The position numbers and the translations under genes were made by a program. DNA of 40,061 bases, from NCBI GenBank assembly GCA_947491305.1, contig CANLIL010000023.1, forward strand, positions 1 to 40,061. Reading direction: 5' to 3'. Origin of the DNA: Flavobacteriales bacterium (lineage in GTDB: Bacteria; Bacteroidota; Bacteroidia; Flavobacteriales_D; Crocinitomicaceae). Under the pieces are notes generated by a model. That model made no database searches and had not been told where the DNA came from. It saw only the letters and a list, made by a program, of their open reading frames with translations. Below, piece after piece: positions 15,227-18,457 of this stretch; the first letter of the stretch is position 1, and the number at the start of each line of letters is the position of its first letter.

Positions 15227-15460
15227 TTATACTAAATCCAAAGCTTTTGCAAGTTCGCTGTCTTTATGAGTGACTGTATTTCCCTTATCATGGGTTGTTA
15301 AAACCACATGGACTCTAGTGTATTCATTTGTCCATTTTGGATGGTGATTCATTTTTTCAATCTGAAGACTTGCTTTTAACATCCATTCCATTGCATCAGA
15401 AAAAGTAGTAAACTCAAATGTTTTCTGCAAGCTATTTTCTAGTTCTATCCATTCTTTCAT
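15227..15460 (-). CDS. phhB: 4a-hydroxytetrahydrobiopterin dehydratase (pterin-4a-carbinolamine dehydratase)
   Basis: This 77-aa protein has the family signature EKMNHHPKW (H39, H40, P41), then Y47, H57 (TTHDKG) and the late Asp of THKD. It recycles the pterin cofactor of aromatic amino acid hydroxylases. It is shorter than the roughly 100-aa human enzyme because it lacks about 20 N-terminal residues, which is common in flavobacterial members; the active-site part is complete. It lies 36 nt downstream of the TonB receptor gene. A TATCTTTA near-match to a -7 box just upstream suggests its own promoter. No phenylalanine hydroxylase is in the window. Confidence 0.93.
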   Translation of the reverse strand: MKEWIELENSLQKTFEFTTFSDAMEWMLKASLQIEKMNHHPKWTNEYTRVHVVLTTHDKGNTVTHKDSELAKALDLV

Positions 15461-15496: not shown

Positions 15497-17890
15497 TTAG
15501 AAATTAATAACTGCTTTCACATTGAATGAACGTCCCATATTAAACACACCAACTCTTCCTGTTGCTGGATTTTCAGGTGCATATTTCAAGCGACTCAAAT
15601 GGTTCTGAAAAGCTGTGTCCAACAAATTATCTACTTGAATAGCTAGAAACAAAAAGTCGTTCTTTTTAAATAGATTCAACGTGGTATGAACACCAACGTT
15701 TAATAAGCTATACGCTGAAGTAGCTGTTTCGTAATTTTCAGCAAATCGATTTTGAGCAAAGTAATGATCTATTGAAAATTGGAAGGTTGTATTGGTAAAT
15801 GTTTTCCCCCATTTTTTTCGTGTAGCTTTTATTTCACCTCGGTATTTTGGCGCTGGTGTAAATGGCATATAGGCTACGTTTCCATTCATTTTGGAATTAA
15901 ACTGCGCGTTTACATATGCAAAAGAATTGGCGATGTGTAACCAATCCAATGGGTGAGGATGAATATCAATATAAATTTCTCCACCAAACAAAAGCGCATT
16001 TTGTTGCTTAAATTGATAAGCAGGTGTTGGATCACTTGGGTCAGGAATACTATCGCCACCTAAAACACTCACTAATTTTTCGGTGTAAATTGCGTTACTC
16101 AATTGATTGACAAACGGTGAAACTTCAAGCGTTAAATGTTCTCTGTTTACCAATAATGAAAGATCGATCTGTTGACTAAACTCTGGTTTTATATCCTTCG
16201 ATCCGTATTCGTAACGAAACGTTCCTTCGTGCTTACCATTTGAGGCTAATTCTGCTAACGTTGGTGCTCGATATCCTCTTGAGAGATTTAATTTAATGGT
16301 TGTGCTCGGCTTTACCTGGTAACTAACACCTAAACTCCCGGATAAACCATTAAACGCTTGACTTATACGATCAAATTTTAATGCTGCATTTTCATCCATC
16401 GTAGGCATTTCATTCGTGTCTAAACGCAATGCGTCGGAAGTCAGAACGCGTGAGTCAAATCGAATTCCACCCGCAATATTCCAATTTTTTGCAATTGTTT
16501 TTTGGGTGTAAAGAAATCCACCAATATCAAAGAAACCATATGCTGGAATGATGAATTCAATTCCTTTGTTTTCATTTTGTTGGTACATCCCACTAATCCC
16601 AAAAGATGTTTCCCACTTTTTTAATTCTTTTAAATTATAGCGAAAAGCATAGTTTACAGTGGATAAATCAAATAATAAATCAATTGCTTCTGGTGCTGTT
16701 ACATCTCCAAATTCTTTTCGAATGTTTTTTTGAAATGCAATATCAGAATGGAAAACACCATTTTTCATCTTTACTTGTGTTGCATTTGCTACTCGTATGT
16801 GGTGAATTTGTTGATGCGGGAATCCAATTTTATAGCCATTTAAATCGCTTGTAGTTGCACTGTTTTCTTCTCCATTTTGATTGACAACTAAAAAATTTCC
16901 CAATGAATCGCGTTCTCCTTCCACCATATTGATGGTAGAATTGTACGAGCTAAAAGACAAGCTTGAAGTACCCCATTTTTTCTGCACGCCCAATTGAAAG
17001 CTACCATTGTACTCATTAAATCCTGAATTGTAAACAATCCCATCGTATTGATTGCGGTAATTTCCAGCCATTTTAGAACTAAATCGCACATTCCAAAAGA
17101 AGTCTTTTTGTCTTCCTTGATTGAAGATCGAGTATCCAAAGAAGTTGTGATTGGATTGATAATTACTTAAAATTTGCGTTTTGATTCCATCTGCATTCAT
17201 TGGTTTTGGCGCTAAGAAATTTACTACGCCTGCAATTGCATCAGAACCGTAAAGTAAACTTCCAGGGCCTTTTATAATTTCTACTTGATCTACCGAATAT
17301 TCATCGATTTCAATACCGTGTTCGTCACCCCATTGTTGTCCTTCCTGACGGATTCCATCATTTAATGTAATCACACGATTGTAACCCAAACCACGAATGA
17401 TTGGCTTTGAAATAGCCGTTCCCGTTGCAATTTGATCAACCCCAGGAATTCTTTTTAAAGCGTCAACAAGGTTGGTTGAACTTTGTTCTGTTAATTGTGC
17501 TTTTTTTACTTGTAGCACATTCAACGGACTTCTTTTTAGTTCGGTACTTCTCGATACGCCTGTAATTAATATATCATTATATTCGGTGACGTTTGGAGAC
17601 AATTCAAGTACGATTGTTGTGTCCTTTTGTAATGTTATTTTTTGAATTAATGTTTCATAACCATCTGTAAAGCAAATGATTTGATACGTACCTTTCGGTA
17701 AGTTTGAATAGGTGAAATGGCCATCATTTGAAACTTCTTGTACTTTATTTAAGTTATGAATTTCAATTGTAGCGCTTAATTTTTCTTTTGTTTCTTTTGA
17801 TTGAATGGTGCCGTTTAAACTTACTTGTCCGAAACATAAAAGTGAAAAGGACAAAAAAGTGAGCATCAAAAAAGTATCTTTTTTTTGCAT
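15497..17890 (-). CDS. TonB-dependent outer-membrane receptor, ZnuD-like
   Basis: This 797-aa protein has a signal peptide ending near CFGQ and then a CarboxypepD_reg-like beta-sandwich (about 24-105). A plug domain follows (about 115-230), with RGLGYNRVITLNDGIR, DQVEIIKGPGSLLYGSDAIAG and VVNF. The C-terminus is a 22-strand-type beta-barrel ending in an aromatic residue (KAVINF). The barrel segment with RGYRAPTLAELASNGKHEGTFRYEYG and a His-containing IYIDIHPHPLDW recalls ZnuD-type metal receptors. Together with the upstream His-rich protein this suggests uptake of zinc or another transition metal. Substrate is inferred from resemblance and context only. No ExbB/TonB genes are nearby. Confidence 0.88.
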   Translation of the reverse strand: MQKKDTFLMLTFLSFSLLCFGQVSLNGTIQSKETKEKLSATIEIHNLNKVQEVSNDGHFTYSNLPKGTYQIICFTDGYETLIQKITLQKDTTIVLELSPNVTEYNDILITGVSRSTELKRSPLNVLQVKKAQLTEQSSTNLVDALKRIPGVDQIATGTAISKPIIRGLGYNRVITLNDGIRQEGQQWGDEHGIEIDEYSVDQVEIIKGPGSLLYGSDAIAGVVNFLAPKPMNADGIKTQILSNYQSNHNFFGYSIFNQGRQKDFFWNVRFSSKMAGNYRNQYDGIVYNSGFNEYNGSFQLGVQKKWGTSSLSFSSYNSTINMVEGERDSLGNFLVVNQNGEENSATTSDLNGYKIGFPHQQIHHIRVANATQVKMKNGVFHSDIAFQKNIRKEFGDVTAPEAIDLLFDLSTVNYAFRYNLKELKKWETSFGISGMYQQNENKGIEFIIPAYGFFDIGGFLYTQKTIAKNWNIAGGIRFDSRVLTSDALRLDTNEMPTMDENAALKFDRISQAFNGLSGSLGVSYQVKPSTTIKLNLSRGYRAPTLAELASNGKHEGTFRYEYGSKDIKPEFSQQIDLSLLVNREHLTLEVSPFVNQLSNAIYTEKLVSVLGGDSIPDPSDPTPAYQFKQQNALLFGGEIYIDIHPHPLDWLHIANSFAYVNAQFNSKMNGNVAYMPFTPAPKYRGEIKATRKKWGKTFTNTTFQFSIDHYFAQNRFAENYETATSAYSLLNVGVHTTLNLFKKNDFLFLAIQVDNLLDTAFQNHLSRLKYAPENPATGRVGVFNMGRSFNVKAVINF

Positions 17891-18022
17891 GATTTAATTT
17901 TTAAATAAATAATTGTAATGAACACTTCAACTAGATCAAATTCTCTAGAAGAAAATGTAATCAGATTCGAATGCATAACATACGATCTATCTCAATTGAA
18001 TATGAAATGTTAAAATGTTGGT

Positions 18023-18041
18023 GAATCAAAAGTATTGATTC
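18023..18041. promoter_or_regulatory. 19-bp palindrome upstream of the TonB receptor gene
   Basis: GAATCAA and TTGATTC (7-bp arms, perfect) flank AAGTA, giving a 19-bp inverted repeat between the His-rich gene's stop and the receptor's start. Its size is that of Fur/Zur-type operators, though the sequence does not match a consensus I know. It could also fold as a weak intercistronic RNA hairpin. No U tract follows. Confidence 0.35.
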
Positions 18042-18050
18042 GTTTAAAAA

Positions 18051-18425
18051 TTAAATCGTGTAGGGTGGACCTCTGTTAGAAGTTTGACAGCTTCTTTTAA
18101 TTAATTCTCCTGAATAAGAATGGACAAAAGTTGGGAATGAATTGTAGCTAATTAAATGAAATTCAAAGCTTGATTGTAAGTGTGAATTAAGTAAATGGTG
18201 TTCACAAATATCACAACTAGGATCTCCTTCATTGATGTGATTTTTGTCTGAACAATGGTTAGAATCTAAAGAAAAATAAAGCGATTTTTCACAGGCATTC
18301 GCATGACTGTGCAGAACAACATGATGCTCGTGATGGTGAAAAAAAGCTTGAAAAGGACTGCTTACTAAATAAATTAGTAAAAAGATAATGGATAAATTTA
18401 TGGTAAGCTTTTTCTTCATTAGCAT
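18051..18425 (-). CDS. Small exported His-rich, Cys-containing protein (putative metal binding)
   Basis: This 124-aa protein has one N-terminal hydrophobic segment (about 8-28; signal peptide or anchor). A His cluster follows (HHHEHH at 30-35, then H39 and H41), then C45 and H57-C58, a CDICEHH motif (C71, C74, H76, H77), and a C-terminal RGPP at 118-121. It has 14 His in all. The layout (hydrophobic start, central CxxC, terminal RGPP) recalls the small DUF2946-type proteins found beside metal TonB receptors, but I cannot assign it firmly. It precedes the ZnuD-like receptor by 160 bp on the same strand, so a role in metal sensing or handing over metal in the periplasm is plausible. The start could be M1 (18425) or M3 (18419). 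Confidence 0.8.
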   Translation of the reverse strand: MLMKKKLTINLSIIFLLIYLVSSPFQAFFHHHEHHVVLHSHANACEKSLYFSLDSNHCSDKNHINEGDPSCDICEHHLLNSHLQSSFEFHLISYNSFPTFVHSYSGELIKRSCQTSNRGPPYTI

Positions 18426-18427
18426 TT

Positions 18428-18457
18428 CAAAGTTAGGTATTTTTTCTTTAAAATCAA
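18428..18457 (-). promoter_or_regulatory. Promoter of the His-rich protein/TonB receptor genes
   Basis: The minus strand has TTG (18457-18455), a 19-nt spacer and TAACTTTG (18435-18428). This is the complete Bacteroidota -33/-7 arrangement, and the best one in the window. The -7 box ends 2 nt before M1 and 8 nt before M3 of the His-rich protein, so the mRNA should be leaderless or nearly so. Confidence 0.7.

Follow-up and report, generated by a model that had tools for sequence, protein, structure and literature searches.

Control of a TonB-dependent receptor by a stalled leader peptide has been described in Bordetella pertussis, where CruR (BP2923, DUF2946) is the leader of bfrG/crtA (PMC9426467); its arrest was shown in PMC12992588, and the receptor is treated in PMC12914433. 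CruR stalls the ribosome at RAPP and responds to copper through a CXXC motif (PMC9426467, PMC12992588). The spacing between the two motifs, 45 residues, is kept within one or two residues, and an extension by five spoiled copper control (PMC9426467). Arrest occurs with the first proline in the P site and the second in the A site (PMC12992588, PMC10951233), and RGPP gives the most robust arrest (PMC12992588). The survey in PMC12992588 placed RAPP/RGPP upstream open reading frames (uORFs) ahead of TonB receptors across Gram-negatives, and this kind of leader is already known; that survey lists no Cu-related class in Bacteroidota. Here we analyzed a window (the whole stretch studied, 40,061 nucleotides (nt) of contig CANLIL010000023.1, assembly GCA_947491305.1, from a Flavobacteriales bacterium of the Crocinitomicaceae) in which a small His-rich open reading frame (ORF) ending in RGPP lies ahead of a gene for a ZnuD-like TonB-dependent receptor. 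The two are most likely a regulatory unit. On sequence grounds we give a probability of roughly 0.7 to the reading that the ORF acts in cis on the receptor gene as a leader encoding a metal-sensing arrest peptide, with a helix that masks the receptor start as its output. In our literature search copper was the sole transition metal found with a described nascent-chain sensor, and the search, thin on subscription journals, turned up no zinc-responsive arrest leader or detailed account of this Bacteroidota group.

The features of the locus, in order of transcription, are as follows.

18428..18457, minus strand: Bacteroidota-type promoter, TTG (at 18457), 19 nt, then TAACTTTG (18435-18428), from sequence.
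18051..18425, minus strand: leader ORF (uORF), 124 aa as listed, with hydrophobic N-terminus, His-rich part, CDIC and C-terminal RGPP.
18204..18215, minus strand: CDIC codons (CxxC), proposed metal site, 43 residues ahead of RGPP, from sequence.
18063..18074, minus strand: RGPP codons AGA GGT CCA CCC, predicted arrest site with the first Pro in the P site and the second in the A site.
18043..18057, minus strand: 5' arm of the helix, GATTTAATTTTTAAA, spanning the leader stop codon, a perfect complement of 15 bp.
18023..18041, minus strand: inner hairpin GAATCAA-TACTT-TTGATTC in the gap, from the minimum free energy fold.
17891..17905, minus strand: 3' arm of the helix, TTTAAAAATTAAATC, directly ahead of the receptor ATG.
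15497..17890, minus strand: ZnuD-like TonB-dependent receptor, 797 aa, with a carboxypeptidase-regulatory-like part (below the Pfam cut-off), plug and barrel.

The original prediction, made from the letters alone, had described an ORF of 124 aa with 14 His, a CxxC and RGPP ahead of a ZnuD-like receptor, and all of this is present, the receptor lying downstream across a gap of 160 nt. The leader ORF holds 5 Cys and one CDIC, and its tail, ...SNRGPPYTI, leaves three residues after the motif; it is thus a small ORF that precedes another gene and carries a RAPP-like motif close to its C-terminus. Its hydrophobic N-terminal stretch is export-like as judged by eye. Homologues begin at the second ATG (18419), which would give a window leader of 122 aa, and the first ATG, only 2 nt past the -7 box, is probably not the true start.

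A lack of conserved pairing in relatives would have refuted the prediction, and the survey of relatives showed the pairing of leader and receptor to be conserved. A receptor search matched 118 of 240 genomes of the family at E<=1e-60. Among the best 19 receptors (L030-L048) one lay at a contig edge, and in 17 of the 18 others, all but L046, a small ORF with RGPP, KGPP or RAPP at its end lies upstream. The pairing extends to named Bacteroidota, as 59 of the best 80 named loci have a leader (57 of 79 under a shorter distance limit); the nearest named record is a metagenome-assembled genome of the Crocinitomicaceae (L060), whose receptor is 88% identical. A search with the leader over 99 genomes matched 15: the window's own, five in which the leader is real, and others with weak matches that proved spurious on inspection (L010, L011 and L015 were left out). 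A profile of 20 aligned leaders (A3) matched 121 of 395 genomes of the class at E<=0.001. A further 95 loci were picked because profile or motif matched them; 60 profile-match loci were taken nearly in rank order, a few matches (edge or partial ones and one other) being skipped. A leader of the form CxxC-(40-48)-xxPP was found in 88 of the 95 and was absent from seven, and a TonB receptor came next in 61 of 75 assessable loci.

What is kept in the leaders is a small part of the protein. In the A3 alignment two Cys and two Pro are the sole invariant residues, one His is nearly invariant, and identity to the window protein falls to 18% within the 20 sequences. The number of His ranges from 5 to 14 across 25 leaders and the length from 95 to 136 aa where an ATG was found. 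The distance from CxxC to RxPP is near-fixed, being 43 in 16 and 44 in one of the 17 close leaders, which were not preselected. In the picked loci it is 43-46 in 83 of 88 leaders (mean 43.7, sd 1.05, in a set preselected for 40-48), and the stretch ahead of CxxC varies far more (sd 11.7). Because the arrest motif, the CxxC and their distance are kept and the helix, where there is one, is tied to the stall site, while the His part and the length vary, the leader reads as a nascent-chain regulator acting in cis.

The helix offers a possible output. In the window GATTTAATTTTTAAA is the exact complement of TTTAAAAATTAAATC; an equally long helix arose in none of 500 shuffles, and the fold has z=-5.4. 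The summed pairing, T, which covers 9-36 nt past the R codon and mildly favours motif-anchored helices, is 15.6 and was reached by none of 60 shuffles. For the relatives, gaps were thinned to clusters within each of two sets; across the sets, likeness to set-1 gaps covers most of the length in L144 and L145 only, and shorter stretches in others. Pairing of the receptor start with nt 17-21 past the R codon reaches 0.28-0.33 in 64 gap clusters, whereas shuffles give 0.06 (Wilcoxon on summed pairing, p=0.025) and 119 control gene pairs 0.05-0.07. This was further supported by a second set of 58 clusters (0.40 vs 0.06 at nt 18, p=1e-4), and the effect remained when each arm was shuffled separately (p=0.004 in the first set and 1.6e-4 in the second). 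A sum of T>=5 was seen in 22 of 61 and 24 of 58 clusters, that is 46 of 119, compared with 12-13% of shuffles, so that a stall-placed helix occurs in a minority of lineages, the window's included. The helix begins 13.6 nt (sd 4.4) past the R codon in the 61 pairs that reach T>=5, related ones counted too, and its start shifts neither with tail length nor with the stop codon (slope of 0.07, not different from zero at p=0.57).

By arithmetic, the ribosome edge lies near nt 21, inside the helix, when the first Pro codon is in the P site. With pairing forbidden under the stalled footprint, openness of the receptor start region in the window rose from 0.36 to 0.59. The mean over the 64 clusters rose from 0.48 to 0.54 (p=2.7e-4), and changes above 0.1 were gains in 13 clusters and losses in two, against 11 and three of 119 controls (p=0.019). 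Initiation in Bacteroidia relies on low structure and upstream A, not generally on Shine-Dalgarno pairing (PMC9976891), and a helix over the start region would therefore be an apt lock.

The motif is rare in the organism's own genome. The pattern MGNG[G/C]NCCNCC has 16 matches in the whole 2.53 Mb, and nine of these carry an Arg codon. One of the nine is in the window leader; the remaining eight fall in open frames of 19-94 codons, which we judged by eye to be non-genes. Apart from the window leader, no plausible protein with RAPP/RGPP close to its end was found in the genome, and this rarity argues that the window RGPP is not a chance occurrence. The genome has 12 TonB barrel matches, and no convincing RxPP leader was seen upstream of the 10 others examined (one with just 196 nt, and C80 left out). 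A motif match upstream of another of these receptors (L214) was rejected, its frame being interrupted by stop codons. In the same genome (C5:22000-25100; L219:1158-1610) a Cys-rich small exported-type protein with PPP near its end precedes another TonB receptor; it resembles NCBIfam HYC_CC_PP (E 0.0036, below that model's cut-off) and may be a second leader type.

From these features we infer that the leader arrests the ribosome and binds metal, that the two genes are co-transcribed, and which metal is sensed and with what sign, in the following order of events. Leader and receptor would be read from one promoter ahead of the leader. When metal is poor, the ribosome would stall at RGPP, where it would cover the last leader codons and keep the helix open, so that the receptor start is exposed and the receptor is ON. 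In this stalled state the CxxC would be about 45 residues from the peptidyl-transferase centre, approximately where the chain leaves the exit tunnel. Metal bound to the emerging Cys/His site would free the ribosome, either by folding or through a pull on the exported chain; the freed ribosome would finish the leader, the helix would reform and the receptor would be OFF.

The promoter data fit this order. The pattern TTG-N17-22-TAnnTTTG has 10 matches in the window, the leader promoter among them; the -33/-7 promoter named in the prediction does exist, and its rank as the best in the window is not established. Transcription would probably start near the leader ATG. TAnnTTTG occurs upstream of 64 of 105 leaders and within seven of 105 leader-receptor gaps (mean stretches 300 vs 117 nt, not length-matched), which fits a single transcript begun ahead of the leader. 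No intrinsic terminator was found in the window gap, as neither of the two sites listed falls there, and four terminator-like matches were seen across 151 leader-receptor pairs.

Several findings weigh against the proposed leader function. By the search used, 21 of the 80 named receptors have no leader. In the named loci 27 of 59 leaders have a CxxC at 40-48; of the 32 that have none at that distance, 24 carry HxHC (15) or CxC (nine) at 44-50 and eight have neither. The sd of 1.05 for the spacing comes, as said, from preselected leaders. About 60% of gap clusters are without such a start-masking helix, and the T>=5 level is reached by 12-13% of shuffles. The average gain in openness is small, and next to a stalled ribosome the window helix could still form pairs in its 3' part. 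Since most clusters have no helix, it cannot be the sole output and other outputs must exist.

A rival reading has the output of CruR itself. Here the stall at RGPP would shield the mRNA from Rho, copper would free the ribosome, Rho would end transcription before the receptor, and the helix would be secondary. The layout is that of Bordetella cruR-bfrG, with CXXC, a RAPP-like end, a spacing of 45 vs 43 and a gap of 162 vs 160 nt. In addition, C exceeds G ahead of the motif in 144 of 151 leaders (all pairs, relatives included, as in the helix-start counts), compared with 28% of 517 control genes. However, this excess is predicted by the amino acids and local codon usage (observed 0.102, expected 0.100, p=0.24, 50 loci; window p=0.32), and after this control we dropped the signature as independent evidence for Rho. 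Rho also leaves the stall-anchored helix unexplained, and the receptor is more like ZnuD than OprC, though OprC is close by fold. We regard a CruR-type output as improbable.

A still less probable explanation is that the mature His-rich protein is a periplasmic binder that supplies the receptor with metal or buffers it, the RGPP being incidental. The 14 His, the export-like N-terminus and the adjoining receptor gene would suit such a protein. But the His count and the length vary as given above while only the two Cys and the two Pro are unchanged throughout the 20 aligned leaders, RGPP/RAPP occurs in no other plausible protein of the genome, and neither the spacing nor the stall-anchored RNA pairing is accounted for. 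The prediction had seen a metal-uptake unit that catches or senses metal at the envelope: the conserved pair does look linked to metal uptake and the sensing option is the one that survives, whereas a metal-catching envelope protein is not supported, the His part and length being widely variable. Finally, a SecM-like monitor of export capacity rather than metal is suggested by the export-like N-terminus, the RxPP end and the start-masking stem shared with SecM and ApdP-type leaders (PMC12992588, PMC10987492), but is highly improbable given TonB receptors downstream in 61 of 75 loci, no sec or yidC among the 14 others by eye, and a CxxC and a His conserved in the leaders.

The receptor passes the Pfam cut-offs of PF07715 and PF00593, and ZnuD is its nearest solved structure by sequence (E 4.6e-25 with the window protein, at 20-23% identity); with a receptor profile ZnuD was the sole match among solved structures at 1e-20 (4.1e-35). 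An AlphaFold model of the receptor (mean pLDDT 86.6) also matched ZnuD best (Foldseek 1.5e-38; structural alignment Z 38.1, rmsd 2.0, 586 aligned). In the VIA-align comparison ZnuD at 38.1 is barely above ChuA (36.9) and OprC (35.9), so the fold alone does not set the metal. The zinc ligands of ZnuD are Asp-99, His-100, Glu-340 and His-499 (PMC4557270). E190, H191 and H554 of our receptor align with ZnuD ligands if, as we inferred, the numbering of the PDB chain is that of the paper plus 14. Over 37 receptors H191 and E393 are invariant, and D189, E190 and H554 are kept in at least 90%; E393 lies just outside the aligned block, and its match to Glu-340 is our assignment. Since ZnuD is the closest solved structure and likely counterparts of its zinc ligands are present, zinc rather than copper is moderately favoured as the sensed metal. 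Two points speak against zinc: CruR's response is to copper, and the heme-receptor models TIGR01785 (143.6 bits) and TIGR01786 (139.5 bits), both below cut-off, outscore the ZnuD model NF038289, whose cut-off of 950 bits the receptor, at 108.9 bits, does not reach. By these scores the receptor might take up heme; ZnuD too had at first been annotated, wrongly, as a heme receptor (PMC4557270).

Regulators beside related receptors were also compared. Of 50 family receptors 48 were assessable: 26 had only a leader, seven only an adjacent Fur-like gene, one had both and 14 neither (Fisher p=0.009, with no tree correction), a weak indication that leader and adjacent Fur-like gene are mutually exclusive. 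At the seven sister receptors a divergent gene of the Fur family stands in place of a leader; six of the seven genes pass the Pfam FUR cut-off, and the one at L058 was seen only by our own profile, built from these same genes. None of 79 named loci has a Fur-like neighbour. In the genome of the window a single Fur-family gene was found, by eye without the Cys pairs of the regulators beside the sister receptors. Four Hymenobacter loci carry a cation-efflux gene close to the receptor; one of them (L111) is leaderless, and the leaders of the other three are without CxxC.

More tentatively, the leaders could represent a zinc-sensing nascent chain spread throughout Bacteroidota, which controls ZnuD-type receptors at the level of translation instead of through a Fur-like repressor, with a Cys/His site one exit-tunnel length ahead of RxPP/KGPP and, in part of the lineages, a start-site helix at the edge of the stalled ribosome; we hold this to be possible, at somewhat below even odds. 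If so, metal sensing by a stalled nascent chain would be general, and it would explain how the receptor is controlled in a genome in which one Fur-family gene was found. The near-fixed distance from metal site to stall motif gives a concrete test of the tunnel-length idea, and the leader group also probes stall-controlled switching in a phylum without general use of Shine-Dalgarno pairing.

Other variation was seen around the leaders. The motifs of the 88 picked leaders are RGPP (50), RAPP (22), KGPP (12), RSPP (2), KSPP (1) and LLPP (1). KGPP stands in place of RGPP also in L037, L038, L040, L041, L043 and L044; lysine may support arrest on Bacteroidota ribosomes too, and surveys confined to RAPP/RGPP would overlook such leaders. 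Confinement of leaders to one receptor clade was suggested by L049-L059, where none of 11 has a leader, and contradicted by the next 20 ranked, 10 of which have one. The 14 genes other than receptors that follow picked leaders include seven small lipoproteins of one kind, three ABC ATPases and one DUF4625 protein. The lipoprotein, of about 190 aa (ITTLxYTL...DLDGDGG...DHQF), stands directly behind RxPP leaders in L157, L233, L236, L243, L244, L253 and L267, and the two copies checked (L157 and L233) matched no Pfam family at E<=0.001. An ABC ATPase gene follows an RxPP leader in L019, L022, L159, L264 and L265, and in L019 and L022 a receptor-like start comes after it, by eye.

Downstream of the receptor no partner was general across the surveyed loci. 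A DUF2721-like gene, one copy of which was checked with Pfam, recurs near and downstream of the receptor in 13 loci (e.g. L092, L103, L119). In the window a pterin-4a-carbinolamine dehydratase gene (15227..15460, minus strand) begins 36 nt past the receptor on the same strand; its 77 aa are below the limit of the neighbour survey, which took in ORFs of at least 80 aa.

The window leader matched no Pfam family at E<=1 and no NCBIfam family; the profile search for DUF2946-like families that the prediction suggested gave no match of this protein to PF11162. Two of the 20 aligned leaders match PF11162 weakly (best E 0.021). In the class DUF2946 occurs in two of 149 genomes, in one case (L222) without an RxPP end; the PF11162 member L221 is also matched by the leader profile (E 6.9e-7, in a search of these two loci only), and a distant link between window-type leaders and DUF2946 is likely.

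Compared with known systems, the window leader is one of the TonB-related RAPP/RGPP uORF kind (PMC12992588), a study whose available text works out no metal, spacing or RNA switch for Bacteroidota and whose main text holds neither KGPP nor KAPP. With CruR it shares the small exported-type ORF, the CXXC, the RxPP end at nearly the same spacing (45 in CruR, 43 here) and the long gap followed by a TonB receptor (162 nt in cruR-bfrG, 160 nt here). It differs in having no PF11162 match, RGPP instead of RAPP and a His-rich part, in a receptor that is ZnuD-like, CrtA belonging to a separate cluster of copper transporters, and in a predicted start-masking helix where Rho termination has been demonstrated for CruR. 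CutF of Rhodobacter capsulatus is also an exported leader with a Cys motif, a Pro-rich end and a stem-loop over the start of the next gene; there, however, copper turns a multicopper oxidase ON, the motif is CxxxC, and in the available account stalling at the CutF end is not demonstrated (PMC9973294). The receptor resembles ZnuD of Neisseria meningitidis in the conserved, probable counterparts of the four zinc ligands, that of Glu-340 by assignment (PMC4557270), and differs in its additional N-terminal carboxypeptidase-regulatory-like part and in scoring far below the NF038289 cut-off. In SecM-secA and uDF_RQH-secDF2, as proposed here, stalling of the ribosome unfolds a structure that masks the start region downstream; those leaders monitor protein export, whereas the window leader has a likely metal site ahead of its stall motif (PMC10987492), and its helix would hide the start region itself, in a class that does not generally use Shine-Dalgarno pairing (PMC9976891). 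By analogy, the locus most likely combines an input like that of CruR with an output like that of SecM.

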